NCBI GenBank assembly: GCA_025210295.1 | Contig: JAOASC010000016.1 | Location: forward strand, 310,001-374,000 | Direction: 5' to 3' | DNA: 64,000 bases | Origin: Flavobacteriales bacterium | GTDB lineage: Bacteria; Bacteroidota; Bacteroidia; Flavobacteriales_D; Parvicellaceae | In this document: in pieces, positions 2,266 through 58,758 of the stretch | Numbering within the stretch: position 1 is the first letter of the stretch | How the letters are laid out: the number at the start of each line of letters is the position of its first letter | Notes under the pieces: model-generated | The model's database searches: none | What the model saw: only the letters and a program-made list of their open reading frames with translations | What the model was told of the DNA's origin: nothing | Translations under genes and position numbers: made by a program

Positions 2266-2284
2266 ATCGAATTATTTTTTTTAC

Positions 2285-2318: not shown

Positions 2319-2387
2319 GTTTTAAAGCTTTTATCAACAATAGCTGATTTTAACATAAAATAGCTTTTTAATGAGGTTATAAATTAG

Positions 2388-2395
2388 TATTTTCG
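2388..2395 (+). promoter_or_regulatory. Probable -7 box of ilvE promoter (TATTTTCG)
   Basis: TATTTTCG fits the Bacteroidetes TAnnTTTG element with one mismatch and ends 21 nt before the ilvE ATG. No convincing TTG -33 element is seen at the expected distance, so this is a moderate call. Confidence 0.45.
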
Positions 2396-2416
2396 CGTCA
2401 AATAAACTGAATATCA

Positions 2417-3484: not shown

Positions 3485-3492
3485 AACTAAAG

Positions 3493-3520
3493 AAAAACTG
3501 TTGAAAAGCAGTTTTTTTTT
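3493..3520 (+). terminator. Rho-independent terminator after ilvE
   Basis: An 8-bp stem (3493-3500 with 3509-3516) and an 8-nt loop lead into a T run reaching 3520, 9 nt after the ilvE stop. It sits on the TTG at 3501 that could be misread as the start of the next gene. Confidence 0.8.
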
Positions 3521-3551
3521 GCTCATTACCAACTTAAAAAACTTTCGTACT

Positions 3552-4724: not shown

Positions 4725-4733
4725 TTAGGGGCT

Positions 4734-7928: not shown

Positions 7929-7951
7929 AAACAATCGTCTAGTATAACATT

Positions 7952-8632: not shown

Positions 8633-8660
8633 AAAACGAGATTAAATCTCGTTTTTTTTT
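8631..8660 (+). terminator. Rho-independent terminator ending efflux operon
   Basis: An A-rich 12-bp stem (8631-8642 with 8646-8657, core CGAGA/TCTCG) with a 3-nt loop runs into T to 8660. It overlaps the final bases of the preceding stop codon. Confidence 0.85.
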
Positions 8661-8674
8661 GCTTAAATAATTCT

Positions 8675-8682
8675 TATCTTTG
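8675..8682 (+). promoter_or_regulatory. -7 box TATCTTTG upstream of the CsgG-like operon
   Basis: An exact TAnnTTTG match ends 35 nt before the ATG at 8718. The T-run of the preceding terminator lies upstream, with a TTG only 13 nt away, shorter than the usual 17-20 nt, so the -33 element is uncertain. Confidence 0.5.
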
Positions 8683-8717
8683 ATTACCTATACCATATCG
8701 TATTTTAACCCTTTAGT

Positions 8718-10052: not shown

Positions 10053-10061
10053 TACAACAAT

Positions 10062-31590: not shown

Positions 31591-31598
31591 TATATTTG
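31591..31598 (+). promoter_or_regulatory. -7 box (TATATTTG) before the S74 / T9SS module
   Basis: Exact TAnnTTTG ending 20 nt before the ATG at 31619. No TTG is seen at 17-21 nt upstream, so the -33 element is weak or absent; activator-dependent transcription is possible. The rest of 31447-31618 holds nothing I can name. Confidence 0.5.
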
Positions 31599-31618: not shown

Positions 31619-34600
31619 ATGAAACATATTAGCATATTTATAATATTTTTTTTGATTAGTTATTTAGCTAGTGCTCAAGTCCCTAATCAAATTAGCGGCA
31701 TCAATTATCAAGGTATTGCAAGAGAAGCTGATGGGACACCTATAGCAGACAATACAATCGATGTTGCAATTTCAATACTGGATAATGGAGGTAATACTAT
31801 TTTTAGTGAAACACATAGTGGTGTATTAACCAATCAGTTTGGCCTATTTACTTTAATTATCGGAACTGTAAATACATTAGACGCCAACCTATGGAATCAA
31901 GCTATTAAAATTAAAACAGAAGCAGATTTTGGTTCTGGAATGGTTGAAATTGGTACAGTTGTTTTAGCTGCTGTTCCTTATGCCTTTAAAGCAAAATATG
32001 AAGGACAAAAAATTGAATATTCAAGCAGTAACAACAGACTATATATCACCAACGGAAATGGAACATATCTTGATTCTGTAACGATTGCCTCAGGAGGGAG
32101 TTCACTTCCTGCTGGTGGAACAAATGGACAAGTACTATCAACAGATGGTAATGGGAATTACGCTTGGATAACTGATAACGACAGTGATCCCGCTAACGAG
32201 ATTCAAAATTTAGAATTAGATGGTGACTCAACCATCATTCTTAAAGAAGGAAATGGAAATATCAACAGTACCATTCATCTCCCTAATGATAACCAAAGAC
32301 TTAATCTATCAGGAACCATCATCTCTATTGAAAATGGAAATAATATTGACTTAGGTTCAATTATTCCAGCAGGAGGTACTGATGACCAAAATTTAGACTC
32401 AGCTGTTCTAAGTGGAACAAGCTTATCCATACATATAGAAGGAGGAAATGCCGCTTCTGTAGATTTATCGAGTTTACAAGATGGCACAGGAACAGATAAT
32501 CAAGATTTGGAACTTACTGGTAATAACCTAACATTAACCAACGATGGTACATCGGTAGATTTAAGTGGGTATTTAGACAATACTGATGCGCAAACGCTAT
32601 CTTTATCAGGAAATACATTAACAATTAGTAATGGAAATAACGTAACTTTAACTGATAATGTAAATGATGCTGATGCTAACCCTACCAATGAAATTCAAAC
32701 ACTTACCCTCTCTGGAAATACTCTAGAAATATCTGGAGGAAATACGGTAACGCTACCTTCAGGTTCTGATAATCAAGATTTAGAGCTTTCTGGAAATAAC
32801 CTGACATTAACCAACGACGTTACCCCTGTAGATTTAAGTGGTTATTTAGACAATACTGATGCACAGACCTTATCTTTATCAGGAAACACATTAACAATCA
32901 GTAACGGAAATAATGTAACCTTGACTGATAACGTAAATGATGCTGATGCTGATCCCAATAATGAAATTGAGTTACCAACTGGAGGTACAAATGGACAACT
33001 ATTATCTACAGATGGAAGTGGTAATTATTCTTGGATTAGTGACAATATAGGTAGTGACGACCAAGCCATTAGTGGAAGTGGACTTTCTGGAACGACATTA
33101 ACCATTGGAATTGAAGGAGGATCAAATGAAACTGTTGACTTATCTTCATTGGCTGAAGCTGATGACGACTGGTTTTTGGGAGGTTCTACTACCGCAAAAC
33201 CTACTTCTATTAATGACGATATATGGAAACGAGGTAATGTAGGTATTTTTGGAGCTGTTGGAAGTAATACTATTAGCCATATGCTTACAATTGGACAGAC
33301 ATCAAGTACAACAACACCAATGGTCGCTATAAAAAATGGTCATGCAACAGGAGATGCCAGCATGCTATTTGATGGAGGAACAACTGATTATTCAATAGGT
33401 TCTGATGCTGGGAATGGTAGCTTTACCATCGCTCAAAATTCCTCAGGGTTAGGTACTAACGACCGTTTAGTTATTCAAAACAATTCAGGTTATGTTGGTA
33501 TTGGTACTTCTTCACCAGGAGCGAAGTTAGACATCAAAACGAATAGCGCTACAACTGATGCTTTGTATATTGGTCAATCAACTACTTTACCACAACTTGT
33601 TGTTAAAGCAGGTGGAAATGTGGGGATTGGAACAACTTCTCCTAGTTCAAAATTAGCAATTGAAAATAGTGCAAATGCGCATATTGACTTAACCAGTACA
33701 TCTGGTAATGCTAAAATAAACTTACAATCTAGCTCAGGAAACTCCTCTATTAACTTCTATGAAAGTGGTACTTCGCAAGCAGAAATTGGTTGGAATAGCG
33801 CCTCTAACTATCTCTATTTAAATGATGGAACAGCCAACAGCCTAACTTCCAGATCAGGGAGAGTTGGGGTTGGAACCAACTTTCCTTCAGAAAAACTTCA
33901 TATTGTAAACAATAATGAAAATATCTCTTTAAAAGTTGAAAATTCGTATGCTTCAGGCAATATATACGGTATTCAAAACAGAATTACTAGTTCAACTACT
34001 AATAATAATGCAACGTATGCTACTTGGAATGGTGTTAATAATGTAAATAATTCAAACACGCTTGCTACTTCTACTTTTGCCAATTACTCTTTTACCAATA
34101 ATGGAGGTACTGGAACTAGTTATGGTTATTATTACAGAGATTATTCTGGTACAAATACTAGCTATGGAATATATACACAAGGAGAGGATAGAAATTACCT
34201 AAGTGGACGTATTGGTTTAGGTGTAACTAGTCCTTCTTACCAATTGCACCTAAGTTCTAATAGTGCTGCAAAACCTACTTCTAGTGCTTGGACAGTAACT
34301 TCAGACAAACGTTTAAAAGAAAATATTCTTCCATATAAATCTGGCATTGATGATATTATGAAAATAAATCCCGTTTGGTATACCTATAATGGTAAAGCAG
34401 GACTCCCTAGAGAAACAGGGATAGGTGTAATAGCTCAAGATTTACAAAAAATTGCTCCTTACATGGTTAATGAATGGACCTACCAAAACAAAGAAACATA
34501 CCTTGGCGTTGATAATGGGGCAATGACTTATATGCTTATTAATGCAACTAAGCAACAACAGGAAGTCATCTTAAGTATGGAAGAACAATTAAAAGTTCAA

Positions 34601-34651
34601 CAAAAACAAATAAATGCTTTAATTAAAGAAATTGAAAACTTAAAGAAGTAA
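31619..34651 (+). CDS. Large secreted protein with C-terminal S74 intramolecular chaperone (tail-fibre-like)
   Basis: A 1010-residue protein with a signal peptide (1-20, ending ASAQ). The N-terminal domain (about 25-125) resembles the start of Bacteroidetes tail-fibre-like proteins (ISGINYQGIAREADGTPI). A long repetitive beta region (about 150-550) has repeated LSGNTLTISNGNNVTLTDN units, followed by GVIGT/VGIGTSSP-type repeats, common in trimeric beta-helical fibres. The end carries an S74 domain: TSDKRLKENI with Ser895 and Lys900 in the S-x4-K spacing of the self-cleaving dyad, GVIAQDLQKIAP, and a final coiled coil. It lacks a T9SS C-terminal sorting domain of its own. It lies 2 nt upstream of a gene that is almost only such a domain. 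An oligomeric surface fibre is likely. Confidence 0.85.
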   Translation: MKHISIFIIFFLISYLASAQVPNQISGINYQGIAREADGTPIADNTIDVAISILDNGGNTIFSETHSGVLTNQFGLFTLIIGTVNTLDANLWNQAIKIKTEADFGSGMVEIGTVVLAAVPYAFKAKYEGQKIEYSSSNNRLYITNGNGTYLDSVTIASGGSSLPAGGTNGQVLSTDGNGNYAWITDNDSDPANEIQNLELDGDSTIILKEGNGNINSTIHLPNDNQRLNLSGTIISIENGNNIDLGSIIPAGGTDDQNLDSAVLSGTSLSIHIEGGNAASVDLSSLQDGTGTDNQDLELTGNNLTLTNDGTSVDLSGYLDNTDAQTLSLSGNTLTISNGNNVTLTDNVNDADANPTNEIQTLTLSGNTLEISGGNTVTLPSGSDNQDLELSGNNLTLTNDVTPVDLSGYLDNTDAQTLSLSGNTLTISNGNNVTLTDNVNDADADPNNEIELPTGGTNGQLLSTDGSGNYSWISDNIGSDDQAISGSGLSGTTLTIGIEGGSNETVDLSSLAEADDDWFLGGSTTAKPTSINDDIWKRGNVGIFGAVGSNTISHMLTIGQTSSTTTPMVAIKNGHATGDASMLFDGGTTDYSIGSDAGNGSFTIAQNSSGLGTNDRLVIQNNSGYVGIGTSSPGAKLDIKTNSATTDALYIGQSTTLPQLVVKAGGNVGIGTTSPSSKLAIENSANAHIDLTSTSGNAKINLQSSSGNSSINFYESGTSQAEIGWNSASNYLYLNDGTANSLTSRSGRVGVGTNFPSEKLHIVNNNENISLKVENSYASGNIYGIQNRITSSTTNNNATYATWNGVNNVNNSNTLATSTFANYSFTNNGGTGTSYGYYYRDYSGTNTSYGIYTQGEDRNYLSGRIGLGVTSPSYQLHLSSNSAAKPTSSAWTVTSDKRLKENILPYKSGIDDIMKINPVWYTYNGKAGLPRETGIGVIAQDLQKIAPYMVNEWTYQNKETYLGVDNGAMTYMLINATKQQQEVILSMEEQLKVQQKQINALIKEIENLKK
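32495..32968 (+). repeat. Two in-frame direct repeats of 201 bp
   Basis: Copies at 32495-32695 and 32768-32968, each coding 67 residues that begin DNQDLEL and end NEI; the protein copies differ at five positions. They are internal to the S74 fibre gene and could change its shaft length by recombination. Confidence 0.85.
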
Positions 34652-34653
34652 AA

Positions 34654-35124
34654 ATGAAATTATTATTCATTCTATTCATACCTTTTTCTTGCTTCTCCCA
34701 ACAAGTTTTGAGCTCTGGGGGAAATGCACCTTCTCCAACCAACATTAGTGAGCAAACGATTTCGTTTACTATTGGAGAGCCTTTGATTACTACAGGTGGA
34801 GATGATGAATTAATCACTGAAGGATTTCAACAACCCCATATAAAAGGAAAAGTATATGTAGCTGGAGTTAATGCTTTTTCTCCCAACAATGACGGGAATA
34901 ATGATACTTGGCTTTATAAAAAACCGTCTGAACAATATCAAATAGAAATTTTTTCACGTTGGGGAAACATAGTATGGAACAATACAGAAGACCTTTCTAA
35001 TAGTGAATGGGATGGAACTGATAGCAATGGAAATGTATTGCCTGATGGCACTTATTTTTACACAATCAAAGTGAATGGCAAAGCACTTGAAAATGGCTCT
35101 GGATATATAGAAATCACACGATAA
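34654..35124 (+). CDS. Small secreted protein consisting mainly of a T9SS type-B sorting domain
   Basis: A 156-residue protein. A signal peptide (about 1-15, ending CFSQ) is followed by a short module, SSGGNAPSPTNISEQTISFT then IGEP and TEGFQQPH, which occurs in front of sorting domains in many Bacteroidetes proteins. From about residue 70 it is a type-B (CHU_C / gliding-motility-associated) C-terminal domain: NAFSPNNDGNNDTW, IEIFSRWGNIVW, WDGTDSNGNVLPDGTYFYTI. There is no room for a separate cargo domain. It starts 2 nt after the S74 gene and ends 6 nt before a PorP/SprF-like gene, so the four genes are translationally close. It may act as a secretion adaptor or anchor; this is inference. 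Confidence 0.88.
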   Translation: MKLLFILFIPFSCFSQQVLSSGGNAPSPTNISEQTISFTIGEPLITTGGDDELITEGFQQPHIKGKVYVAGVNAFSPNNDGNNDTWLYKKPSEQYQIEIFSRWGNIVWNNTEDLSNSEWDGTDSNGNVLPDGTYFYTIKVNGKALENGSGYIEITR

Positions 35125-35130
35125 AATTAG

Positions 35131-36051
35131 ATGGTAAAAACGTTTAAATATAGCCTTACATTTCTTCTTGTTTGTATTCTTTTTTTTAGGAATATAGCAC
35201 AACAGGATTTTGTGCATACACAATATATGTTTAACCTCTTTAGCATAAATCCTGCTTATGCAGGGAGTAAAAACACCATGGATATTAATTTATCTCATAG
35301 AAGTCAGTGGATAGGTTTAGACGGAGCACCACAAACTCAATTTTTATCCATCCACTCCCCTATTTTACAAAATAAAGTAGGACTAGGACTTCAAATTAGT
35401 AACGATGCAATTGGCCCAAGAAAAGTCTTAGGAGTTAATACTGCTTATGCTTATCATATTGATCTCAACAAAGGTAAACTAGGATTTGGGTTGAGAGCTG
35501 GAGCATATAATTTTACTTATGATTGGAGTCAACTTAATTATGAATCTGGCTATGATGGTGTAATTGGCATGAAAAACCCTAATACACTTGCTGTTAATTT
35601 TGATTTTGGGGTTTATTATAAAAACAGAGTCAACTATGCTGGTTTAGAAATAGCTCATTTAAATCAAGCTAAAATTTACACTTCAGATTCGTTAACAAGC
35701 GAAGCGCACTTATACCCACACCTAGCCTTATTTTATGGACATGCTTTCGAAATCAACGACAATATGGTTCTTAAATCTTCGATCTTGGCTCGTGCTGTTC
35801 AAAATAACAGTTATATCGATGTCAACCTGAGTATGCTTTTTAATGATTTTCTATGGTTTGGCGCTTCATACAAAAGTGTAGGAATCGTTGGAGCGATTAC
35901 AAAATTCAACATTTCTAAACGATTCAATGCTGGATATTCTTTAGATTATCCAATTTCTAATACTTTTTTAAAAAGGACTTCCCACGAGCTATTTTTAACG
36001 TACAACATCTCTATGTATAAAGAGTTAGGAGTCTCTCCTCGTTATTTTTAA
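35131..36051 (+). CDS. PorP/SprF-family outer-membrane protein
   Basis: A 306-residue outer-membrane beta-barrel of the PorP/SprF family, with signal peptide (about 1-23) and the family opening QQDFVHTQYMFNLFSINPAYAGSKN. Alternating amphipathic strands continue to an aromatic C-terminus (SPRYF). In Flavobacterium johnsoniae SprF-like proteins are needed for secretion or attachment of type-B T9SS cargo such as SprB and are encoded next to it; the small type-B gene just upstream fits that rule. It is followed 2 nt later by the PorE-like gene. Confidence 0.92.
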   Translation: MVKTFKYSLTFLLVCILFFRNIAQQDFVHTQYMFNLFSINPAYAGSKNTMDINLSHRSQWIGLDGAPQTQFLSIHSPILQNKVGLGLQISNDAIGPRKVLGVNTAYAYHIDLNKGKLGFGLRAGAYNFTYDWSQLNYESGYDGVIGMKNPNTLAVNFDFGVYYKNRVNYAGLEIAHLNQAKIYTSDSLTSEAHLYPHLALFYGHAFEINDNMVLKSSILARAVQNNSYIDVNLSMLFNDFLWFGASYKSVGIVGAITKFNISKRFNAGYSLDYPISNTFLKRTSHELFLTYNISMYKELGVSPRYF

Positions 36052-36053
36052 TT

Positions 36054-38315
36054 GTGAAAAAGTTATTATTATTCATATTACTCGGAGTTAACTTTCTTTT
36101 GTTTGGACAAGAACAAAAAGGAGATGAATACTTTCAATTACATGATTATAACGCAGCGATCAAAGCCTACCTAAAAGCACTTAAGAAAAATGAAAATGGG
36201 ACCCTACACCAAAAAGTAGGAAAGGCTTATTTATTTGCGAAAGATTATAACAATGCTGATAAACACTACAACCTATCTTTAACATTTGATGATCAAGATG
36301 ATTCGACTTTATTTCAGTATGCAAAAGCTTTATTAATCTTAAATCATAAAAAAGAAGCAAGAAAATACTTTGACGTTTATTCAACAAAATACCCTAAAGA
36401 TCATTTAGCAAAACAGTATTTAAAACTTTACGACTCTTTGTTAGTTGATACGCAAAGAAAACCAGACTTTTCTATTCAAACTTTAGAAGGTGGAATTAAT
36501 ACTGAACTTTCAGAATACGGAGCTAAACCCCATAAAAATGGATTATTATACCTTTCAGAAAAATCACCAGATTTAGTGAATGACCAACACAATACGCTTG
36601 TAAACTCAAATTATTTTGGGATTTATTACAGTGAAAATTCAGGAGTAGGAAACTTTTACAATAATAAATTAAACTCTCCATGGAATAATGGTTCTGTAGT
36701 CTTATCTCCAGATGGTTCAAAACTGTATTTCACAAAAACATTCCGCAATAGAAAAACAGAAGTCATGCAACTTTTTTATTGTAACATTGAGGGAGATAAA
36801 TTATCTAAACCAATTCCTTTTGAGTACAACAACAAAGAATACTCTATACTTCATCCAGCTTTTAGTGAAGATGGAAAAACACTTTACTTCAGTTCTAATA
36901 AAAAAGGAGGTAAAGGAGGCTGGGATATTTATTATTCTAAAAAAGATCGAAAATACGGTTGGTTGGCTCCTAAACCCATAAATGGAAATATTAATACAGC
37001 CGGCAATGAAGTTTTTCCGCATGCATATAAGGGCAATCTTTACTTTTCCTCTGATGGACATTTTGGATATGGAGGTTTAGATCTTTTTAAAGCTAGAGCC
37101 AATGAATATTATAAAAACATTTACAATTTAGGAGCTCCCATTAACTCACCTAAGGATGATTTTTCAATTTTTTACACCTCTCAACTTAACGGCTACTTTT
37201 CAAGTGATCGACCATCAGGAAAGGGGAAAGATGACATTTATCAATTTACCGAAATAGAGCATCCAATAATAACAGATACTGCAACTTCTATTTCTGGAGT
37301 ATTTCAATTCAAAAAGATTGGACTAGCTCAAAAGGAATTAATCTTATATGATGAAAATGGTATTGAGGTTGAAAGAATTATTACGGATAAAGATGGGAAC
37401 TTTGTTTTTAATCAATTAAAGCCTGGAGTAAATTATACCATTTTACCAGCTGAAGAAATTGAAGATGCAGATTTATTTCTAACCAATTCGAAAGGTGAAA
37501 AAATTATCTTAGCCCAAAGCGATGGGAAACAATTTATCTTTAAAACAATAAAATCAGATTACGCCGAAGCCTTACTCCCTATTGAAGAGGAAGATCCCAG
37601 TTTTTTAATTATACCTATCAAAGGTTTTGTTTATAAAACGATCAAAGGAGATTTTAATGAACGAATCGAAATCAAGGTCTATGATGAAAGTGGTACTTTG
37701 ATTGGAAGAACATACACTAATAAAGATGGAACTTTTGTCTTTAATACCCTAACTCCTCAAAATAATTACTTCTTGGAAATAGCAGAAGAGGAAGAACTCC
37801 ATATCATTATCAAGTCAAAAAATGATACTGATGAACAAGCAGAGAGACAAGAAAACGGTCAATTTCTTTTCAAGAGAATCAAGAATAATGATGACGCTAT
37901 TTTATTAGTAAATGAAAACAATGATTTAATTCGAATTTTCCAAAATGAGCGCTTCTCCGTTAATAATATATTATACGAAACCAATAGTGCAGAATTAAAT
38001 ATTGATGCCATTACTGAACTTAACAAATTATACATCATGTATAAGAAAAACATTCATTTAACCTTTACAATAGAATCCCATACAGACAGTAAAGGCAGTG
38101 ATAAATACAATTTAAAGCTATCAGAAAAAAGAGCAAAAAAAGTAGTAGAATACCTTGAAAACAAGGGTATTCCCAAAACACACTTAATTGCTAAAGGCCT
38201 AGGAGAAACCAAATTACTAAACAAATGTGGTAATAACGATAGTTGTTCGGATGAAGAACATGCCATCAATAGACGAACTGAAATTAAATTAAAAGGTAAA
38301 AAAACAGAGTTTTAA
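36054..38315 (+). CDS. PorE-like outer-membrane-associated protein (TPR, propeller, CRD, OmpA)
   Basis: A 753-residue protein with signal peptide, TPR helices (about 20-130), a PD40/WD40-like propeller (about 135-400: DGSKLYFTKTFRNR, DGKTLYFSSNKKGGKGGWDIYY, GNLYFSSDGHFGYGGLDLF), two carboxypeptidase-regulatory-like domains (about 415-460 and 525-570) and an OmpA C-terminal domain (about 640-753) with the peptidoglycan-binding Asp and Arg in HTDSKGSD and INRRTEIKL. This order matches PorE of the T9SS, which tethers the machine to peptidoglycan, with one extra CRD. It starts with GTG, 2 nt after the SprF-like gene; no ATG lies near. Other non-T9SS OmpA proteins share this layout, so the PorE role is inference from context. 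Confidence 0.88.
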   Translation: MKKLLLFILLGVNFLLFGQEQKGDEYFQLHDYNAAIKAYLKALKKNENGTLHQKVGKAYLFAKDYNNADKHYNLSLTFDDQDDSTLFQYAKALLILNHKKEARKYFDVYSTKYPKDHLAKQYLKLYDSLLVDTQRKPDFSIQTLEGGINTELSEYGAKPHKNGLLYLSEKSPDLVNDQHNTLVNSNYFGIYYSENSGVGNFYNNKLNSPWNNGSVVLSPDGSKLYFTKTFRNRKTEVMQLFYCNIEGDKLSKPIPFEYNNKEYSILHPAFSEDGKTLYFSSNKKGGKGGWDIYYSKKDRKYGWLAPKPINGNINTAGNEVFPHAYKGNLYFSSDGHFGYGGLDLFKARANEYYKNIYNLGAPINSPKDDFSIFYTSQLNGYFSSDRPSGKGKDDIYQFTEIEHPIITDTATSISGVFQFKKIGLAQKELILYDENGIEVERIITDKDGNFVFNQLKPGVNYTILPAEEIEDADLFLTNSKGEKIILAQSDGKQFIFKTIKSDYAEALLPIEEEDPSFLIIPIKGFVYKTIKGDFNERIEIKVYDESGTLIGRTYTNKDGTFVFNTLTPQNNYFLEIAEEEELHIIIKSKNDTDEQAERQENGQFLFKRIKNNDDAILLVNENNDLIRIFQNERFSVNNILYETNSAELNIDAITELNKLYIMYKKNIHLTFTIESHTDSKGSDKYNLKLSEKRAKKVVEYLENKGIPKTHLIAKGLGETKLLNKCGNNDSCSDEEHAINRRTEIKLKGKKTEF

Positions 38316-38416: not shown

Positions 38417-41400
38417 TTGAGATTTGTTTTTGTCCATATTGTTATATTCTTTTTTTCTTTCGCTAGTTATTGGGGACAAGAAAAGCATGCTGCTATTCAA
38501 TTTAGAGAAAACAAAGGACAGTATGAATCTTTTATACGATATTACTTATCGATTAATGAAGGGGAGATATACCTAGAAGACAATCAAATTACTTATCATT
38601 TATTCAGTAGAGACTTGATCGCTGATATTCACCACCACAAAAAGCCCAAAGACACTCCTATCAATGGACATGCTTATCGTGTTTCTTTTGAAAATGCTAA
38701 TACATCTTCTCTTTTTTATGGAGAAGGTCAATCTTCTAATTACAGCAACTATTTTATTGGGAACAATTCTAAAAAGTGGGCCAGTCAAGTTTATGATTAC
38801 GAAACTGTTTATTACAAAAACATCTATGAGGGTATCGATTTAAAATTTTATGGCTTTTATGGACAAGTCAAGTACGATTTCATTGTTGAACCTGGAGCAA
38901 ATCCAGAAAACATCATTTTAAAATACGATGGTATTGACCAAATGAAAATTAAGAATGGACACTTATTCTTAGAGTCCAACTATGGAACTTTAGTAGAACA
39001 AAGTCCTTATGCCTACCAAATCATTGACGGAAAAGAAGTTAAAATAGATTGCCAATATGTTTTAAAAGGGAATAAAGTTTCTTTTCAATTGAATGAAGCC
39101 TACAATCCAAACATTGAGTTAATCATTGACCCTGTTTTATCATTTGCTACCTATACAGGATCCACTGCTAGTAATTTTGGCTGTACTGCTACTTATGATG
39201 ATGATGGAAATATGTATGTTGGCGGAACTGTTTTTGGCTTTGGTTATCCCACCACTATTGGAGGTTTTCAAACTACCTATAACGGCGGTTCTATTGATAT
39301 GGGAATTACTAAATTTTCTTCTAACGGTTCCAACCTTATCTACTCTACCTATATTGGTGGGAGTGATAACGAAATCCCCCATAGTTTGGTCGTTAATAGT
39401 TTAAATCATCTTTGTATTATGGGAACATCAGGATCAATAGATTACCCAACCACTAATGGAGTTTATGATGATACTTTTAATGCTGGACCTTCTCTTAGTT
39501 TAGGTACTGGATATGGTTTTCAATACCTAAACGGTTGTGATATTGTTATTTCAAAACTAAATTTAAATGGGTCTACTCTTTTGGGGTCCACTTTTGTAGG
39601 AGGAACGGGAAATGATGGTATCAATCGAGATTCAGAATTACATTATAATTATGGAGATGCTTTTAGGGGAGAAATCATTGTTGATGCAAACGATAATATT
39701 TATGTAGCATCCACAACATCATCAACTGATTTTCCAACAAATTCTCCTACACAAGCATCATACGGAGGAGGTGGTTTAGATGGCTGTGTTTTTAAACTCA
39801 ATAACACCCTATCGACATTGTTATGGGGAACCTACGTTGGAGGAAGTAATTACGATTGTGCCTATTCAATACAATTAGATGCTATTGGTGATATTTTTGT
39901 AACTGGCGGAACAAAAAGCACAGATTTTACCACAACTAGTGGAGCTTTACATGAATCCTACATAGGAGGAAGTGCAGATGGTTTTATCACTCATTATACT
40001 GCTAATGGGAGTGCTATAGCAGCCTCAACCTATATCGGAACTTCTGGATATGATCAATGTTTTTTTGTACAAGCTGATATTGATGATGATATTTTTGTTG
40101 TTGGGCAAACAGATGGCACATACCCCATTACTCCAGGAACATATAACAACCCTAACAGCGGACAATTTATACAAAAACTTCCTAATGATTTAAGCAGTTC
40201 TTTAGTCTCTACAACTATTGGAACTGGTTCGGGAGAAGTGGATATTGCTATCAGTGCTTTTTTGGTTAGTGACTGTAATCAAATTTATATTTCTGGATGG
40301 GGAGGCGCCACCAATAGATTCACAACAATGGGAGCGCTAGCAACTTCTAGTACAACTTCTGGATTACCTACCACCTCTCCTACTTTCCAAAACACTACAG
40401 ATGGAGACGACTTCTATTTAGCTGTATTGAATGAAAATGCACAAGACTTACTATACGCAACTTTTTTTGGAGGAACTTTAAGTCACGAACATGTTGATGG
40501 AGGGACAAGTCGTTTTGATAAAAGAGGAAAAGTATATCAAGCTGTTTGTGCTGGATGTGGAGGCTTTGATGACTTTCCAACGAACCCTAGTGCTTGGTCT
40601 ACAACCAACAATAGTACTAATTGTAATCTGGGAGCTTTTAAATTTGATTTGGCCAATATCACTCCTACCATAAGTATTCCTCTTCCTTACGTATGCTTAC
40701 CAAGCTCCTATACTTTTAGCAATAATTCATCTGGAGGGAATTCCTATTATTGGGATTTTGGTGATGGTAATAGCTCTACTGATTTTGAACCTGTCCATAA
40801 TTACTCCGATACAGGAAATTATCAAGTGCAGTTAATTGTAATGGACACCAGTGGATGTTTAGCTCCCGACACTGCTTACTTAAGTATAGATGTTTTTATG
40901 CTTAATAATGCAATTATTACGCAAACAGACACTATTTGTCCAGGAGACAGTGCTCAACTAAATGCTAGTGGTGGAGTAAGCTACCAGTGGAGTCCCAACA
41001 CCTACATCTCCAACCCTACTATTGCTAATCCATACGTATATCCTCCAACTACCACAACTTATCAAGTTGTTACTACAGATAGTTGTGGAGCTGATACTGC
41101 TCAAATCATTATTGAGGTATACAATGAAGTCATCACAACAATGCCAGATTCAACAATATGTATTGGAAATTCAGTCCAGCTAACGGCTTCAGGAGGCACG
41201 GACTACAACTGGCTCCCTACACCAGACATGGTTAACCCAAGTACTCAAACACCAACAGTCACACCAACAACTACGACGACCTATTTTGTTGATGTAACTA
41301 CAGCTAATGGTTGTCAATTACTCGACTCCGTTACTATAAATGTAATCACTACAATTCCTATCCCGGACCTCCCCAACGATACTTTAATTTGCTACGGTGA

Positions 41401-42304
41401 CACCATTAATATTTCTGCAAGTGGAGGTTCTTCAATACTATGGAACCCAGCCAATATTGTGGGCGACCCTATCAGTTATAACACTACCGCATTTCCTACA
41501 GACACCACCATGCTTGTTGCCGATTTTATCAACGCTTGTGGAGTTGTCAGAGATTCTTTCTTAATTGAAGTTACAGACATCTTTCCAACTATTGTAAACG
41601 ATACCATTATATGCCCAAATGATACAGCGATATTATGGGCTGATAACGCTGACTTTTACGAATGGTCTCCAGCTAGTTCTTTGACACATCCTGATAGTAA
41701 TTACACCTTAGCAATCCCTCAAGGAGAAACAGTATATCAAGTAATTTGTTCTAATACAGCAGGCTGCTCTAAAACACTCACAACGACTGTAGAACTCTTC
41801 CCTACTCCTTACGTCTATGCAGGAGCTGATTTAAACGTGTTTTATGGTGTACCTACAACTTTAAATGGAACAACTACAATGAATACACTATACTGGGAAA
41901 GTCCCGATAGTCTTAGCTGTATCCATTGTTTAACCCCTCAGTTTATTCCAAGTTCAACTTCTGAACACATTTTATTTGTTGAAGATGAAAATGGATGCAT
42001 TAACTCTGATACTGTTACGACTTATGTAAATAGTACATTATATATTCCTAATTCATTTTCCCCAAATGGAGATGGACACAATGACTTTTTTATTACTCTT
42101 GGTGAAGAAATTACAGCCTTTAACATAAAAGTTTTTGATCGTTGGGGATTATTAATTTTTGAATCTGATGATTTAGATCACTATTGGGACGGAAAATACA
42201 AAGGAAAATTAGTGCAACAAGACGCCTATATTTGGAAAGTTAAATATAGTGATCACACCAACAGTGGAACTGAAATCATTGGTCATGTAAATGTTATAAA
42301 ATAA
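38417..42304 (+). CDS. Large T9SS type-B surface protein (DUF7948, SBBP-like repeats, PKD)
   Basis: A 1295-residue exported protein. After the signal peptide (VFVHIVIFFFSFASYWGQ) the N-terminal ~210 residues look like the DUF7948-type domain (FRENKGQYESFIRYYL, YEGIDLKFYGFYGQVKYDFIV). Residues about 245-720 hold SBBP-like propeller repeats (FSTYIGGSDNE- and WGTYVGGSNYDCA-like). A PKD domain follows at about 765-840 (YYWDFGDGNSSTDFEP), then several Ig/PKD-like units with SVTASGG-type motifs (ALNASGGVSYQWSP, LTASGGTDYNWLP), and a type-B sorting domain from about 1205 (NSFSPNGDGHNDFF, KVFDRWGLLIFES, YWDGKYKG). The start is a TTG, chosen because it begins the signal peptide and no ATG is near. It lies 101 nt after the PorE-like gene and is probable cargo of that system. 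Confidence 0.85.
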   Translation: MRFVFVHIVIFFFSFASYWGQEKHAAIQFRENKGQYESFIRYYLSINEGEIYLEDNQITYHLFSRDLIADIHHHKKPKDTPINGHAYRVSFENANTSSLFYGEGQSSNYSNYFIGNNSKKWASQVYDYETVYYKNIYEGIDLKFYGFYGQVKYDFIVEPGANPENIILKYDGIDQMKIKNGHLFLESNYGTLVEQSPYAYQIIDGKEVKIDCQYVLKGNKVSFQLNEAYNPNIELIIDPVLSFATYTGSTASNFGCTATYDDDGNMYVGGTVFGFGYPTTIGGFQTTYNGGSIDMGITKFSSNGSNLIYSTYIGGSDNEIPHSLVVNSLNHLCIMGTSGSIDYPTTNGVYDDTFNAGPSLSLGTGYGFQYLNGCDIVISKLNLNGSTLLGSTFVGGTGNDGINRDSELHYNYGDAFRGEIIVDANDNIYVASTTSSTDFPTNSPTQASYGGGGLDGCVFKLNNTLSTLLWGTYVGGSNYDCAYSIQLDAIGDIFVTGGTKSTDFTTTSGALHESYIGGSADGFITHYTANGSAIAASTYIGTSGYDQCFFVQADIDDDIFVVGQTDGTYPITPGTYNNPNSGQFIQKLPNDLSSSLVSTTIGTGSGEVDIAISAFLVSDCNQIYISGWGGATNRFTTMGALATSSTTSGLPTTSPTFQNTTDGDDFYLAVLNENAQDLLYATFFGGTLSHEHVDGGTSRFDKRGKVYQAVCAGCGGFDDFPTNPSAWSTTNNSTNCNLGAFKFDLANITPTISIPLPYVCLPSSYTFSNNSSGGNSYYWDFGDGNSSTDFEPVHNYSDTGNYQVQLIVMDTSGCLAPDTAYLSIDVFMLNNAIITQTDTICPGDSAQLNASGGVSYQWSPNTYISNPTIANPYVYPPTTTTYQVVTTDSCGADTAQIIIEVYNEVITTMPDSTICIGNSVQLTASGGTDYNWLPTPDMVNPSTQTPTVTPTTTTTYFVDVTTANGCQLLDSVTINVITTIPIPDLPNDTLICYGDTINISASGGSSILWNPANIVGDPISYNTTAFPTDTTMLVADFINACGVVRDSFLIEVTDIFPTIVNDTIICPNDTAILWADNADFYEWSPASSLTHPDSNYTLAIPQGETVYQVICSNTAGCSKTLTTTVELFPTPYVYAGADLNVFYGVPTTLNGTTTMNTLYWESPDSLSCIHCLTPQFIPSSTSEHILFVEDENGCINSDTVTTYVNSTLYIPNSFSPNGDGHNDFFITLGEEITAFNIKVFDRWGLLIFESDDLDHYWDGKYKGKLVQQDAYIWKVKYSDHTNSGTEIIGHVNVIK

Positions 42305-52411: not shown

Positions 52412-55400
52412 ATGAAAAAATATATACTTTCTATCTATTTGTTGAGCAGTTTATTTTCAACATCACTTTACAGCCAAACTACAATAGCCAAACAAGGATT
52501 TGAAACATCAGGAGATACATGGACTCCTTTAACCTTATCAACTCCTGCTTGTACAAATGGAGCTGATATATGGGATTATAGAACTTTTTTAAATACCATT
52601 TCACCAAGTGAGGGTTCTTCTTTTTGGGGGATAGCTGACTTAAATGGAAATTGTGGTGGTTCAGGATTTGAAACAATTAGTCTTCCTAATGTAGATATTT
52701 CTGCTTATTCCTCGGTTACATTTTCGTTTGATTACAATGTATTTGAATTTGATAATGGAGATGATTTAAAATATGAATTATTTTATGACAATGTCAGTCA
52801 GGGAGAAGTGGTTGTAATAGACGGTTCTTCTAACCTATCTACAGGAGGATGGATAACTGAAACTGTAGCAATTAACAGCTCTGTTACAAACGTTAGCGTT
52901 GTATTATCAGCAAAGCAAAATGGTGGAGGTGACTATGGAGGTTTTGATAATGTTAAACTAGAGGGGATATCTTGTACTTCTCCTGACCTTCCTACAGTGA
53001 CTTATTCTCCTATTTCTACATGTAGTGATAGTACGATAACCTTAACGATAAATGGGAACCTAAATGATGCTACTGAATGGTATATTTACTCTGGAAGTTG
53101 TGGAGGTACGCTAGAGGGAGCTACTACTACTTCTACATTTCAATTAGCACCTAATAGCACGACCACATACTATGTGAGAGGCGAAGGTGGTTGTGTAACT
53201 CCTGGTAGCTGTGGTACTGTAACTGTGAATGTTACACCTACCGACAATGCTAGTTTCTACTATGCTAATTCACTTTATTGTCAAAATGCTACAGACCCAA
53301 CACCTACAATTTCAGGATTATCTGGCGGAATGTTTAGTGCTACTCCAAGTGGTCTATCATTAAACCCTAGCACTGGTGCTATCGATGTTTCAGCAAGTTC
53401 TCCAAACATCTATGCTATCACCTATACTACTAATGGTAGCTGCCCTAATAGCCATATTGAATACCTAACCATTTCTGGTCCAACAGTTGGTTATGATGTG
53501 ATTGCAACTTGTAATTCCTATACTTGGATTGATGGGGTAACCTATACATCTAGCAACTTTTCAGCCACTCACCTCCTTACCAATAGTTTAGGATGTGATT
53601 CGATTGCAACGTTAAACCTTACGATTTTTAATTCAGACAACGTTACCGATACTCAAGTCGCTTGTGATAGTTACACTTGGATTGACGGGATTACCTATAC
53701 TTCATCAAACAATACAGCTACACATACACTTACCAATCAAAATGGATGTGACTCGATTGTAACACTTAACTTAACAATTAACAATAGCACAACTGGAGTT
53801 GATACACATATTGCCTGTGGTTCATTTACTTGGATTGATGGAATAACTTATACTGCATCGAACACTACCGCTACGCATACACTTACTAATCAAAATGGAT
53901 GTGACTCAATTGTAACACTTAACTTAACAATTACGACGACTCTAACTGGAACCGACACCCAAACTGCTTGTGATAGCTACACTTGGATCGATGGGATAAC
54001 TTATACAGCTTCAAACAATACTGCGATGCACACATTGACCTCTGTTCAAGGATGTGATTCGATTGTAACACTAAACTTAACCATTTTAAATAGCTCTACA
54101 GGAATTGATACACAAGTGGCTTGTAACTCATATACCTGGATTGATGGAATGACTTATACCTCTTCCAACAATACAGCTACGCACACCTTAACCAATAGCG
54201 TTGGATGTGATTCTGTTGTTACTTTAAATTTAACGATCCACCCTAGCGACAACACCATCGATACACAAAGTGCATGTAATTCGTTTACTTGGATTGATGG
54301 GATTACTTATACCGCTTCGAACACTACCGCTACACACACACTAACCAATCAAAATGGATGTGACTCAATTGTGACACTAAATTTAACTATTCATCAACCT
54401 AACTCTGGTGTTGACATTCAAAGTGCTTGTAACTCTTACACCTGGATTGATGGGATTACTTATACAGCATCAAACAGTACGGCTACACATACCCTCACCA
54501 ATATTCATGGATGCGACTCAGTTGTTACCTTAAACTTAACCATTACAACTACGTTAACTGGAACCGATACACAAACTGCTTGTGGAAGCTATACTTGGAT
54601 TGACGGAAACACTTATACTTCTTCCAACAATACAGCAACACATACGCTAACCTCATCTCAAGGCTGTGATTCTATTGTAACACTAGACCTAACCATCTTT
54701 AATGCTGATAATGTTACCGATACTCAAGTTGCATGTGATAGTTATACTTGGATCGATGGGATAACTTATACTACAAATAATAATACCGCAACGCATACCT
54801 TAACCAATCAAAATGGGTGCGACAGTATTGTTACCTTGGACTTAACAATACTAAATACTACCTACGGTACTGATAATCAAACTGCTTGTAGCAGCTATAC
54901 TTGGATAGATGGAGTCACTTATACTACTTCCAATAACACTGCTACACATACATTAACCAATAGTGTTGGATGTGATTCTGTTGTTACCTTAAACTTAACG
55001 TTAGGGATGCCAAACACTGGAATTGATACACAATTTGCTTGTACAGATTTTACTTGGATTGACGGTATTACTTATACTTCTTCGAACAACACAGCTACTT
55101 TCACGTTAACTAATATGAGTGGGTGTGATAGCATTGTAACGCTAAACTTAACCATCAATTCGGCAACATCATCTACTGAGTCTATCACTATTTGTGGAGG
55201 TGAAACTTATATTATTGGAAATAGTGCCTACCATACATCTGGAACCTACACAACCACACTAACAACAATTGGAGGCTGTGACTCGGTTGTTACAACAAAC
55301 CTAACTGTTGGGCAAGAAATTGACACTTATGTAGAGCGTTTAAATGATGTATTTACAGTTAATTCAACTCCAGGAGCCACTTACCAATGGCTCGATTGTG

Positions 55401-55792
55401 AGAATAATTTTGCTCCAATAGCTGGAGCAACTAACACGACGTATACAGCTAATGAAACTGGTGTATATGCTGTTGCTATTACTCTTGGTAATTGTTCTGA
55501 TACCTCAATTTGCAATGAACTACCTTATATTGTAGACGTCCATAATCCAACCAACTCTACAATAAAAGTTTATCCTAATCCAGCAAAAGAGCATGTAACC
55601 ATTGAATTTGAAAAAAATGATCATGTTCATTTAATTACAATTACCGATTTATCGGGGAAAATAGTATTAAGCGAACCTGTTCTAAACCAAACCAATACCA
55701 TTCTACCTATTGAAGCACTCAACACAGGAGTTTACTTCATTAGAGTTCATGCTCAAAGTAAGTTGGATATCATACAACTCATTAAACAATAA
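52412..55792 (+). CDS. Secreted TWIDG-repeat protein, 11 repeats, T9SS type-A sorting domain
   Basis: A 1126-residue protein with signal peptide (ending LYSQ). The N-terminal head (about 22-190) looks like a jelly-roll or MAM-like domain (QGFETSGDTWTPL, FDYNVFEFDNGDDLKYELFY). Ig-like parts occupy about 195-350. Eleven tandem repeats of 51 residues (53489-55158) follow, each with ACxSYTWIDGxTYT and GCDSIVTLNLTI, two Cys per unit. A divergent twelfth unit, the EIDTYVERLN Ig-like module with YQWLDCENN, and a type-A sorting domain (VYPNPAKEHVTIEF, DLSGKIVLS, LNTGVYFIRV) end the protein. It is likely cell-surface anchored. A promoter box and a terminator (55814-55852) frame it. Confidence 0.85.
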   Translation: MKKYILSIYLLSSLFSTSLYSQTTIAKQGFETSGDTWTPLTLSTPACTNGADIWDYRTFLNTISPSEGSSFWGIADLNGNCGGSGFETISLPNVDISAYSSVTFSFDYNVFEFDNGDDLKYELFYDNVSQGEVVVIDGSSNLSTGGWITETVAINSSVTNVSVVLSAKQNGGGDYGGFDNVKLEGISCTSPDLPTVTYSPISTCSDSTITLTINGNLNDATEWYIYSGSCGGTLEGATTTSTFQLAPNSTTTYYVRGEGGCVTPGSCGTVTVNVTPTDNASFYYANSLYCQNATDPTPTISGLSGGMFSATPSGLSLNPSTGAIDVSASSPNIYAITYTTNGSCPNSHIEYLTISGPTVGYDVIATCNSYTWIDGVTYTSSNFSATHLLTNSLGCDSIATLNLTIFNSDNVTDTQVACDSYTWIDGITYTSSNNTATHTLTNQNGCDSIVTLNLTINNSTTGVDTHIACGSFTWIDGITYTASNTTATHTLTNQNGCDSIVTLNLTITTTLTGTDTQTACDSYTWIDGITYTASNNTAMHTLTSVQGCDSIVTLNLTILNSSTGIDTQVACNSYTWIDGMTYTSSNNTATHTLTNSVGCDSVVTLNLTIHPSDNTIDTQSACNSFTWIDGITYTASNTTATHTLTNQNGCDSIVTLNLTIHQPNSGVDIQSACNSYTWIDGITYTASNSTATHTLTNIHGCDSVVTLNLTITTTLTGTDTQTACGSYTWIDGNTYTSSNNTATHTLTSSQGCDSIVTLDLTIFNADNVTDTQVACDSYTWIDGITYTTNNNTATHTLTNQNGCDSIVTLDLTILNTTYGTDNQTACSSYTWIDGVTYTTSNNTATHTLTNSVGCDSVVTLNLTLGMPNTGIDTQFACTDFTWIDGITYTSSNNTATFTLTNMSGCDSIVTLNLTINSATSSTESITICGGETYIIGNSAYHTSGTYTTTLTTIGGCDSVVTTNLTVGQEIDTYVERLNDVFTVNSTPGATYQWLDCENNFAPIAGATNTTYTANETGVYAVAITLGNCSDTSICNELPYIVDVHNPTNSTIKVYPNPAKEHVTIEFEKNDHVHLITITDLSGKIVLSEPVLNQTNTILPIEALNTGVYFIRVHAQSKLDIIQLIKQ
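53489..55158 (+). repeat. Eleven 153-bp in-frame tandem repeats (51-residue TWIDG units)
   Basis: Unit boundaries are approximate. Each unit has the core TWIDG and GCDS, length 51 residues. Unit-to-unit linkers recur out of order: the linker TTTLTG joins units 3/4 and 7/8, while FNSDNV / FNADNV joins units 1/2 and 8/9, so shuffled copies are likely. Confidence 0.9.
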
Positions 55793-55813
55793 TTACATTA
55801 ACAGTTCATTATC

Positions 55814-55852
55814 AACGAGCTTAAGAAACCAATCTTAAGCTCGTTTTTTTTT
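55814..55852 (+). terminator. Rho-independent terminator after the 1126-residue TWIDG gene
   Basis: A 13-bp stem (AACGAGCTTAAGA, 55814-55826, with 55833-55845), loop of 6 nt and T run to 55852. Confidence 0.9.
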
Positions 55853-55934
55853 ATCTCCTATTTCATAAAATACAATATTCAACATTAAAACACATATATT
55901 AATCTAACACAAAAACAACTACATCATGTTTTTT

Positions 55935-55965
55935 TTGTATTTTATCTTAATATTTAATATTTTTA
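55935..55965 (+). promoter_or_regulatory. Promoter upstream of the 848-residue TWIDG protein
   Basis: TTG at 55935-55937 (in a T run), 20-nt spacer, TATTTTTA at 55958-55965 (one mismatch to TAnnTTTG), 32 nt before the ATG at 55998. Confidence 0.5.
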
Positions 55966-55997
55966 CAATTAATATTTAACCCCTATACCCCACTTTC

Positions 55998-58544
55998 ATG
56001 AAACACCCCAAAACACTACATTTTACGCTATTATTCTTTTTATGTTTATTGTTTAATCTGAACTTTTACAGCCAAACCTATTCTGCAACTGATAGCGTTA
56101 GCACCTTTATTTTTAGCGCTCCCTATACCAATAACGGAAAAGGGTTCAGTTTTTCTCCTGATACTACCATTTCAATTAGTCAACTTGGGAAGAGAGTTCC
56201 AAATGCTTTGGGTAATTACACTTGGACCATTTGGGACATAGACAATATGACGCTTCTTCATCAACAAGCTAGCCTAACTAATGTTGCTGATGTATATACT
56301 TATGAACCTATTAGCAGCCCTTTAATCTTATTAAAAGGAAAGCAATATGCGCTTGTTCTATACTGTGATGCTACAGTTGGTTCAATGTTTTATCTAAGTG
56401 CTTCTAGCCAGATAAATACACATTTAACTTATATCTCAGGACTAACCTGCAACAACTGTTCTCCAAGTTCCTATACACTTCAAAGTAACCCTGGCCTTCA
56501 CATGGGGTTTGCTGACTTTCACTTTTGCATTCCATCAACTGGAATAGATACACAAATTGCTTGTAATTCTTATACTTGGATTGATGGAAACACTTACAAT
56601 TCCTCTAATAATACAGCCACACATACAATATTAGGAGGGGCAGCAAATGGATGTGATTCTATTGTAACACTTAATTTAACAATTAACCATTCTACGTCAG
56701 GGGTCGACACACAAACAGCGTGTGATTCCTATACTTGGATCGACGGGAACACTTACACCTCTTCTAATAATTCAGCCACACATACCTTAACCAATAGCGT
56801 TGGGTGTGATTCGGTTGTTACGCTTAACTTAACAGTAAATTATGCTACGACTGGTACTGATACACAAATAGCCTGCGATTCTTATACTTGGATAGATGGG
56901 AACACTTATACTTCTTCTAACAATTCAGCTACACATACCTTAACCAATAGTGTCGGATGTGATTCGGTAGTTACACTTAACTTAACGATCAATAATACTA
57001 CAACTGGTATAGACACACAAATAGCTTGCGATTCTTATACTTGGATAGACGGGAATACTTATACCTCTTCGAATAACACAGCCACACACACCTTAACCAA
57101 TAGCTTTGGGTGTGATTCGGTAGTTACACTTAACCTAACGATCAATAATACTACAACTGGTATTGATACACAAATAGCCTGCGATAGTTATACTTGGATA
57201 GATGGGAACACTTATACCTCTTCGAATAATACAGCCACACATACCTTAACCAATAGTCTTGGATGTGATTCGGTTGTTACGCTTAACTTAACAGTGAATC
57301 ATGCTACGACTGGTACTGATACACAAACTGCATGTGATGTATTCACATGGATTGATGGAAACACTTATACTTCTTCCAATAATACGGCTACACATACCTT
57401 AACCAATAGCAGCGGGTGCGATTCGGTTGTTACACTTAACCTTACAATTAACCACTCTACTATTGGGCTTGACACACAAATAGCCTGCGATTCTTTCACA
57501 TGGATTGATGGAAACACCTATACCTCTTCCAATAATTTAGCTACCTATACTCTACCCAATAGTGTTGGGTGTGATTCTATTGTTACACTTAACCTTACAA
57601 TAAATCATTCTACGACAGGGATTGACACGCAGACTGCTTGCGATACTTACACATGGATAGATGGAAACACTTATACCTCTTCGAACAATACAGCCACACA
57701 TACCTTAACCAATAGTGTTGGGTGTGATTCTATCATTACTCTAAACCTTACACTAAACCATTCTACGACTGGAATAGACACACAAACGGCTTGCAACAGC
57801 TACACATGGATTGATGGGAATACTTATACCTCTTCGAACAATACAGCTACCCACACCTTAAGCAATAGTGTTGGATGTGATTCGGTAGTCACACTTAATT
57901 TGACAATTCTTACAGCTGTTTCTCACACTCAAACAATTAACACTTGCGCAGGTGAACCATTTACGGTAGGAACTGACACCTATTATACTTCAGGCACCTA
58001 TGTCGCTACTTTAACTTCTCAAGATGGCTGTGACTCCATTGTAACCACTAACTTAATAGTAGCCGAAGAAATTGACACCTATGTAGAGCGATTAAATGCT
58101 GATTTTTCTGTAAAACCTATCGCTAATGCATCCTATCAATGGTTGGATTGCGATAATGGTTACTCACCAATAGTAGGAGCTACCAGCCCTAACTTTACAG
58201 CAACTGAAATAGGATTTTATGCGGTTGCAATTGATGTGGACAATTGTAGAGATACTTCTATATGTAATCATTTACCCTATATTGTTTCCATAGCTCAAGA
58301 GCAACAAGAGCAACTAAAAGTATACCCTAACCCAACAAAAGACCTCATTACGATTGAACACCATAATAACAGCCTAGATGCTAAGCTAACGATAACAGAC
58401 CTTTCTGGAAGAATTTTACACCTCTCCCCTGCTTTAAATCAAGAAAAAATTACAATTTCAACAGCACATTTTAAGAACGGACTGTACTTGATTACTTTAG
58501 AATCATATAAGCATACAGAAACTCTTCAATTTATTAAACACTAA
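55998..58544 (+). CDS. Secreted TWIDG-repeat protein, 9 repeats, T9SS type-A sorting domain
   Basis: An 848-residue protein with signal peptide (ending FYSQ). The N-terminal head (about 26-180) resembles a DUF4082-like beta domain (SAPYTNNGKGFSFSPDTTISI, WTIWDIDNMTLL, GKQYALVLYCD), ending in a GFADFHFCI strand. Nine 51-residue TWIDG repeats (56544 to about 57924) follow; the first has three extra residues (ILGGAANGCDS). A divergent tenth unit, the EIDTYVERLN module with YQWLDCDNG and SICNHLPYI, and a type-A sorting domain (VYPNPTKDLITIEH, DLSGRILHL, KNGLYLITL) close it. The whole stalk and C-terminus are highly similar to the preceding gene, but the head is different. A promoter-like site lies in front. 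Confidence 0.85.
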   Translation: MKHPKTLHFTLLFFLCLLFNLNFYSQTYSATDSVSTFIFSAPYTNNGKGFSFSPDTTISISQLGKRVPNALGNYTWTIWDIDNMTLLHQQASLTNVADVYTYEPISSPLILLKGKQYALVLYCDATVGSMFYLSASSQINTHLTYISGLTCNNCSPSSYTLQSNPGLHMGFADFHFCIPSTGIDTQIACNSYTWIDGNTYNSSNNTATHTILGGAANGCDSIVTLNLTINHSTSGVDTQTACDSYTWIDGNTYTSSNNSATHTLTNSVGCDSVVTLNLTVNYATTGTDTQIACDSYTWIDGNTYTSSNNSATHTLTNSVGCDSVVTLNLTINNTTTGIDTQIACDSYTWIDGNTYTSSNNTATHTLTNSFGCDSVVTLNLTINNTTTGIDTQIACDSYTWIDGNTYTSSNNTATHTLTNSLGCDSVVTLNLTVNHATTGTDTQTACDVFTWIDGNTYTSSNNTATHTLTNSSGCDSVVTLNLTINHSTIGLDTQIACDSFTWIDGNTYTSSNNLATYTLPNSVGCDSIVTLNLTINHSTTGIDTQTACDTYTWIDGNTYTSSNNTATHTLTNSVGCDSIITLNLTLNHSTTGIDTQTACNSYTWIDGNTYTSSNNTATHTLSNSVGCDSVVTLNLTILTAVSHTQTINTCAGEPFTVGTDTYYTSGTYVATLTSQDGCDSIVTTNLIVAEEIDTYVERLNADFSVKPIANASYQWLDCDNGYSPIVGATSPNFTATEIGFYAVAIDVDNCRDTSICNHLPYIVSIAQEQQEQLKVYPNPTKDLITIEHHNNSLDAKLTITDLSGRILHLSPALNQEKITISTAHFKNGLYLITLESYKHTETLQFIKH
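56544..57924 (+). repeat. Nine 153-bp in-frame tandem repeats, with signs of recent exchange
   Basis: Units 3, 4 and 5 are nearly identical. The junctions 2/3 and 5/6 share the same codons over about 60 nt (GTTACGCTTAACTTAACAGT, then ATGCTACGACTGGTACTGAT), and the 3/4 and 4/5 junctions share another (ATCAATAATACTACAACTGG), indicating duplication of multi-unit blocks or gene conversion. Confidence 0.85.
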
Positions 58545-58562
58545 CATTAAGTACCTCAGTGC

Positions 58563-58598
58563 AATCCCCATCCATTGATTTATGGATGGGGATTTTTT
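58563..58598 (+). terminator. Rho-independent terminator after the 848-residue TWIDG gene
   Basis: A 13-bp stem (AATCCCCATCCAT, 58563-58575, with 58582-58594) with loop TGATTT, followed by T to 58598. The remaining bases to 58758 contain no recognisable feature apart from AT-rich sequence. Confidence 0.92.
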
Positions 58599-58758
58599 AT
58601 TCGTGTCTACACAAAACTATTGTATATCAAGATATTCCGCTTCAAAACCCCATCAAAAACACTGTTTATCCTGTTTTTTTAAGTTTTTATCAAAATATTT
58701 CTATAATTAATATTTATTTAGTAAATTTAATGTAAGAAAAAACATAAAACATATAGTC

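Follow-up and report, generated by a model that had tools for sequence, protein, structure and literature searches.

Organization of the locus

The window analysed here is a stretch of 64,000 nucleotides from a Flavobacteriales bacterium (GenBank assembly GCA_025210295.1, contig JAOASC010000016.1, positions 310,001 to 374,000), and the subject of this study is a module of four genes located in it. The four open reading frames (ORFs) all lie on the + strand, encode proteins of 1010, 156, 306 and 753 aa, and are separated by gaps of 2, 6 and 2 nt. These calls agree with the genes, coordinates and gaps given in an earlier reading of the same DNA, made from its letters alone and referred to as the sequence-only reading hereafter. 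The first gene encodes a large fibre that has no C-terminal sorting domain (CTD) of the type IX secretion system (T9SS), and the second encodes a short protein that carries such a CTD. One conserved domain at the fibre base and another in the short protein are, respectively, referred to as MATN and IGEP, names coined in this analysis. The elements of the module are as follows.

31591..31598, + strand: promoter-like element TATATTTG, which fits TAnnTTTG by pattern match, 20 bp ahead of the fibre start codon
31619..34651, + strand: fibre gene, 1010 aa, with signal peptide, MATN base, repeats and a C-terminal S74 chaperone/protease, without a T9SS CTD
31676..32005, + strand: MATN domain at the fibre base (residues 20-129), E 1.2e-11 with a profile built without the window's own sequence
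34301..34468, + strand: S74 domain of the fibre (residues 895-950), with Ser895 and Lys900; Pfam, 46.4 bits against a cut-off of 22
34654..35124, + strand: short protein (adaptor), 156 aa, with signal peptide, IGEP domain and type B CTD
34699..34839, + strand: IGEP domain of the adaptor (residues 16-62), E 4.5e-14 with a profile that likewise excluded the window's sequence; no Pfam family
34867..35115, + strand: type B T9SS C-terminal sorting domain of the adaptor (residues 72-154); Pfam CHU_C, NCBIfam TIGR04131
35131..36051, + strand: carrier of the PorP/SprF family, 306 aa; Pfam, NCBIfam
36054..38315, + strand: PorE-like TPR / PD40 / OmpA protein, 753 aa, GTG start; Pfam, NCBIfam

The motif TAnnTTTG is the -7 consensus of Bacteroidota, and a match to the pattern is not evidence of function. 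Neither in the region nor inside the unit did promoter-like and terminator-like sites exceed the shuffled expectation. The element before the fibre gene, together with the lack of an excess of internal sites, makes the four genes look like one operon.

The fibre and its missing sorting domain

The MATN domain occupies about 110 residues at the fibre N-terminus and has the pattern YQ.(V/I).R...VPYAL.AK; the fibre was the sole match to its profile among all ORFs of the window. Against the NCBIfam model NF053851 (Bdello_MAT_N) the N-domain scored 32.6 bits, under the cut-off of 60, and the same model matched 65 of 71 MATN fibres at E values up to 0.01. By these scores the window fibre appears to be a relative of the mosaic adhesive trimer (MAT) family, and it is not filed as a member. 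A sequence search of the PDB with MATN gave no match.

At the other end of the fibre, Ser895 and Lys900 fit the S-D-x-x-x-K motif of the S74 subgroup of the MAT fibres, and PHROGs tail fibre families match residues 613-1010. By analogy with S74 relatives (PMC10769870), self-cleavage would release residues 895-1010. The conserved part of the fibres is the base (MATN), and the variable tip is the C-terminus: collagen (26 fibres), S74 (13), the YadA head (2) and C1q (1), which are often trimeric types, were found among the 71 MATN fibres. From these modules, the window fibre is probably a MAT-like homotrimer with MATN as the base and the S74 end as the tip.

No T9SS CTD was found in the fibre by Pfam or NCBIfam, and our own profiles for CTD types A and B, constructed from 29 + 29 further proteins that the window's genome encodes, gave no significant score. 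The sequence-only reading had described an S74 fibre without a sorting domain and had named a hidden one as an observation that would overturn its interpretation; the description stands.

The short protein

The short protein matched CHU_C at residues 72-154 with 71.9 bits (cut-off 27, Pfam) and the type B model TIGR04131 with 54.9 bits (cut-off 35, NCBIfam). It thus combines a signal peptide, read by eye, with C-terminal matches above both cut-offs and an adjacent SprF/PorP gene, the features of a type B substrate. By these sequence criteria it is classed as a T9SS type B substrate, and its secretion through SprA is predicted. The sequence-only reading regarded it as almost only a type-B sorting domain. 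The sorting domain is real, but residues 16-62 form a separate conserved domain, namely IGEP.

The IGEP domain comprises about 45 residues between the signal peptide and the CTD. Its pattern is G...(S/T)(I/L/V)GE...(L/I)TQGF.QP, with a divergent branch of the form YSIGQ...GVQQP, and its profile matched only the short protein among all ORFs of the window. No Pfam family was seen for the IGEP region among 73 relatives, and most of the short CTD proteins that were missed by the first IGEP profile have a version of the domain that belongs to the divergent SIGQ branch. A likeness to L,D-transpeptidases appeared in a PDB sequence search; the matches were weak (E 0.04 or worse) and were taken as chance. 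In a fold comparison, for which the model of a predicted type A adaptor was used, the adaptor CTD matched two T9SS CTDs of known structure: that of NucA in its translocon-bound state (8glk_D, Z 11.3) and that of mirolase (8qb1, Z 11.2).

Pairing of fibres and short CTD proteins across the phylum

A separate search, in which public genomes were queried with MATN only, provided 79 named loci with 99 MATN fibres, none of which (0/99) carries its own CTD. CTD proteins no longer than 260 aa and located within 120 nt on the same strand were counted as paired short CTD proteins. Such a protein adjoins 62 of the 99 MATN fibres, and for the other genes of these loci the count is 9 of 417 (Fisher P 7e-44). 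With near-duplicates removed, 45 of 77 fibres were paired. When the whole run of genes is considered, a CTD gene is present for 81 of the 99. The conserved co-occurrence that the sequence-only reading had proposed as a check, and whose absence it would have counted against its interpretation, was therefore found throughout the phylum. In the window's genome, all five MATN fibres adjoin a short CTD protein (5/5).

The same relationship is seen from the side of IGEP. The relatives search with this domain returned short CTD proteins, almost all of them beside MATN fibres. Among 198 genomes of the phylum, 22 IGEP places and 73 MATN places were found, and for 21 of the 22 IGEP places a MATN place lies on the same strand at a distance of about 2 kb or less; two of these 21 have one gene between, and one (G164) consists of fragments. 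The sole clear exception is L070 (G145:C8), where IGEP occurs in a protein of ~750 aa and the contig has no MATN match. The functional pairing of the fibre and the short protein is thus very strongly established, and the adaptor role of the latter is well established.

Two patterns were noted beside the simple pairs. One is that five loci (L140, L142, L146, L153 and L179) are operons in which two or three MATN fibres come after one adaptor, and here a single adaptor may serve several fibres. Another is an enlarged adaptor at L191:8941-14367, a type A protein of 1019 aa that has IGEP at its start and is flanked by two MATN fibres.

The gap of only 2 nt between the fibre and short-protein genes is what would be left if one CTD-bearing fibre gene had been split by a frameshift or an assembly error. 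We regard such an artefact as practically negligible: each protein has a separate signal peptide, and dozens of loci show the same two separate genes, in both orders and mostly with the adaptor first, the reverse of the window. Furthermore, no ORF joining MATN with IGEP, or MATN with a CTD, was present among all ORFs fetched.

CTD type and the carrier gene

Of 73 adaptors compared with the curated models, 69 match TIGR04183 (type A) and 8 match TIGR04131 (type B), some matching both, while no T9SS CTD was detected on any of 71 related fibres or on the window's fibre. Since most pairs are of type A, the split is not specific to type B, the form in which the sequence-only reading had described it, and the address of the adaptor is interchangeable between the two types. 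A SprF gene lies directly downstream of 10 of 11 type B adaptors, in contrast to none of 80 type A adaptors (P 1.7e-12). This distribution is expected if the type B and type A CTDs are read by SprF and PorV, respectively.

The sequence-only reading also suggested a search for the order S74 fibre, short type B protein, SprF and PorE in other genomes. The module does recur, but with other tips: the order fibre, type B adaptor, SprF and PorE-like gene was found with unrelated tips in other genera and families (L232, L233, L235-L238), and fibre, type B adaptor and SprF without a visible PorE gene were found at L072, L075 and L078.

The S74 domain was also considered as the reason for the split, and this was rejected. 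Only 13 of 71 fibres carry S74, most paired fibres are without it, and collagen, FISUMP, Lcl_C and other tips are found in the same split arrangement. Consequently, neither S74 nor its self-cleavage, to which the sequence-only reading had appealed, explains the split. The S74 proteins without MATN in the window's genome (L031, L034 and L035) have no adjoining short CTD gene within the 2.4-3.2 kb examined. In the same genome, L227 (G000:C46:165500-176000, 1623-10212) carries in one run a type B protein of 432 aa, SprF, an S74 fibre of 905 aa that lacks MATN and a PorE-like protein of 1186 aa, which is a second way to place an S74 fibre in a type B module.

For the third protein of the window's module, Pfam PorP_SprF spans its length (231.5 bits) and TIGR03519 gives 236.9 bits, above the cut-off of 90.55, so that it belongs to the PorP/SprF family. 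The fourth protein contains TPR, PD40 and OmpA domains (Pfam) and scored 269.7 bits against the PorE family NF052230, under the cut-off of 600, and 349.6 bits against 620 for the CHU_0125 family. It is accordingly PorE-like by its domains only, and a link to peptidoglycan is probable. The earlier labels of PorP/SprF-like and PorE-like are consistent with these scores. In addition, the window's SprF has no cysteine beyond its signal peptide. A disulfide ties SprF to the gliding track (PMC12635249); such a bond is not possible for the window's SprF, which points to a static fibre.

Proposed mechanism

The idea of the sequence-only reading that cargo and address lie on two polypeptides can be retained: it is consistent with the phylum-wide pairing, the CTD-less fibres and the match of CTD type to carrier, although the arrangement is neither driven by S74 nor restricted to type B. 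We consider it likely that the module encodes a split T9SS substrate, in which a separate, CTD-bearing adaptor serves to export a CTD-less trimeric fibre and to hold it by its base. The steps would be as follows. The fibre, which has no T9SS address, would enter the periplasm by its own Sec signal peptide. The IGEP domain of the adaptor would bind the fibre base (MATN), and the adaptor CTD would be the address read by SprA and the carrier. In the window, where the CTD is of type B, the adaptor-fibre complex would be collected and held by SprF, itself tied to peptidoglycan by the PorE-like protein, and the result would be a static fibre whose tip faces outwards. In other loci, adaptors that have type A CTDs and no SprF gene would use PorV. 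This static anchoring is modelled on the proposal for PG1035-PorP-PorE (PMC9143113) and on the static Fjoh_3952 operon (PMC12618676).

A more specific version, slightly short of an even chance in our estimate, is that the T9SS exports whole folded trimers: the adaptor would bind the base in the periplasm, one CTD would draw the complex base-first through SprA, and the CTD type would then set static SprF/PorE or PorV handling. T9SS substrates exit the translocon CTD-first (PMC10994853). A CTD acting in trans would be advantageous in two respects. One is that the fibre C-terminus is the distal tip, so that its own CTD would be at the wrong end; another is that a homotrimer would otherwise bear three CTDs. 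On an S74 fibre, moreover, an own CTD would be cut off, and a CTD on a small base-binding protein avoids this loss.

Several points weigh against the split-substrate interpretation. A CTD gene is absent from the run for 18 of the 99 MATN fibres. These are partly explained as second or third fibres behind one adaptor, as in the five operons described above, or by contig ends. In favour of the interpretation, all 46 MATN-bearing genomes have SprA, which is present in 154 of 198 genomes overall; this 46/46 result is partly phylogeny, and the association is weak because the SprA-negative genomes are mostly of one family. AlphaFold was applied to naturally adjacent, in-frame adaptor-fibre pairs with the adaptor stop read as Gly, in two runs of 24 and then 109 rows. 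In these read-through chains the CTD and MATN were confident, but IGEP was poorly predicted (predicted local distance difference test about 45-78, also in the run of 109 rows), and the output showed no readable adaptor-fibre interface. The distance matrices of IGEP and MATN correlated with r 0.73, no higher than those of the CTD and MATN (r 0.76), so that this mirror-tree test does not set IGEP apart from the CTD as the contact site. The binding of IGEP to MATN is a prediction drawn from sequences. Finally, a MATN-type fibre can apparently use another route to the surface, if the MAT fibres of Bdellovibrio, an organism not known to have a T9SS, are a guide.

This last point bears on the possibility that the short protein is an anchor only. 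In that case, the fibre would cross the outer membrane otherwise, and the short protein, exported by the T9SS and retained by SprF or PorV, would form a surface socket for the fibre base. An anchor would account for the pairing equally well, and Bdellovibrio MAT fibres with a related N-domain do reach the surface (PMC10769870). However, the conserved unit contains no other export gene, and every genome in which MATN fibres were found has SprA; we consider surface docking alone unlikely, and piggy-back export is the more economical reading.

The short protein could also be a T9SS substrate in its own right, with the fibre not being its cargo; a role as SprF cap, the one proposed for PG1035, would be an example. 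The complex of a type B protein, PorP and PorE in P. gingivalis, for which no fibre is mentioned as a component (PMC9143113), agrees with this. Nevertheless, the pairing persists for the 80 type A adaptors, where there is no SprF, as well as in either gene order and across many tips, and IGEP domains hardly ever occur apart from MATN fibres. Mere neighbourhood is accordingly very improbable.

Relation to known systems

Type B cargo/SprF/PorE operons and MAT fibres are each already known, separately. PorP of Porphyromonas gingivalis binds the type B protein PG1035 and PorE (PMC9143113), and F. johnsoniae has five type B/SprF/PorE-like operons, one of which was shown to be static (PMC12618676, PMC9143113). 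SprB-SprF, Fjoh_3952-3951-3950 and PG1035-PorP-PorE resemble the window's module in the type B CTD, the adjacent cognate SprF and the PorE-like gene in the operon. In these systems, however, the CTD is on the cargo itself, while the window has a 156-aa CTD protein and a large gene for a CTD-less fibre. PG1035 was considered as a short CTD-only protein and was ruled out, its size being about 50 kDa.

The Bdellovibrio MAT fibres have a signal peptide, an N-terminal beta-rich domain, swappable trimeric tips and S74 with the SDxxxK motif, and are surface-located (PMC10769870). The signal peptide, the related N-domain, the tip swapping and the S74 motif are common to both groups; the differences are that the window fibre is under the family cut-off and that the Bacteroidota fibres are paired with a T9SS adaptor. 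In Flavobacterium columnare, proteins without a recognisable CTD are apparently T9SS-dependent (Li 2017 and Thunes 2022, as cited in PMC9936825). Apparent T9SS dependence without a CTD is the shared feature, and no mechanism was given for those proteins. If the present interpretation is true, the adaptor would supply one for the fibres, which bears on a point stated there to be open (PMC9936825).

No description of a split or adaptor-borne T9SS address was found in the literature searched, whose coverage mostly excluded subscription journals. Export on a partner's address has a parallel in the hitchhiker mechanism of the Tat system, where a signal-less subunit crosses on the signal of its partner; that is another membrane and another machine, and the window fibre retains its own Sec signal. 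Characterised T9SS substrates bear their own C-terminal address, and a family of trans-acting adaptors would, if true, explain one large CTD-less group. Such a family would bring with it a recognition code (IGEP-MATN) and a route for exporting a homotrimer with a C-terminal tip and holding it by the base. Likewise, a class of surface fibres would have been overlooked by CTD-based secretome predictions, and a small tag for trimer display on Bacteroidota would become available.

Other T9SS genes of the window and its genome

The window's genome (G000, 4.2 Mb) has a very large T9SS repertoire, with at least 150 type A matches, about 80 type B matches and 28 PorP/SprF matches. Directly 3′ of the module (window 38417-42304) lies a gene for a 1295-aa DUF7948 / PKD protein that bears a type B CTD of its own; no SprF gene follows it. 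This protein may share the module's SprF, by analogy with the orphan type B substrates that share a shuttle in F. johnsoniae. Further downstream (window 52412-60777), three type A T9SS proteins made of repeats like DTQIACDSYTWIDGNTYTSSNNTATHTLTN are arranged in tandem.

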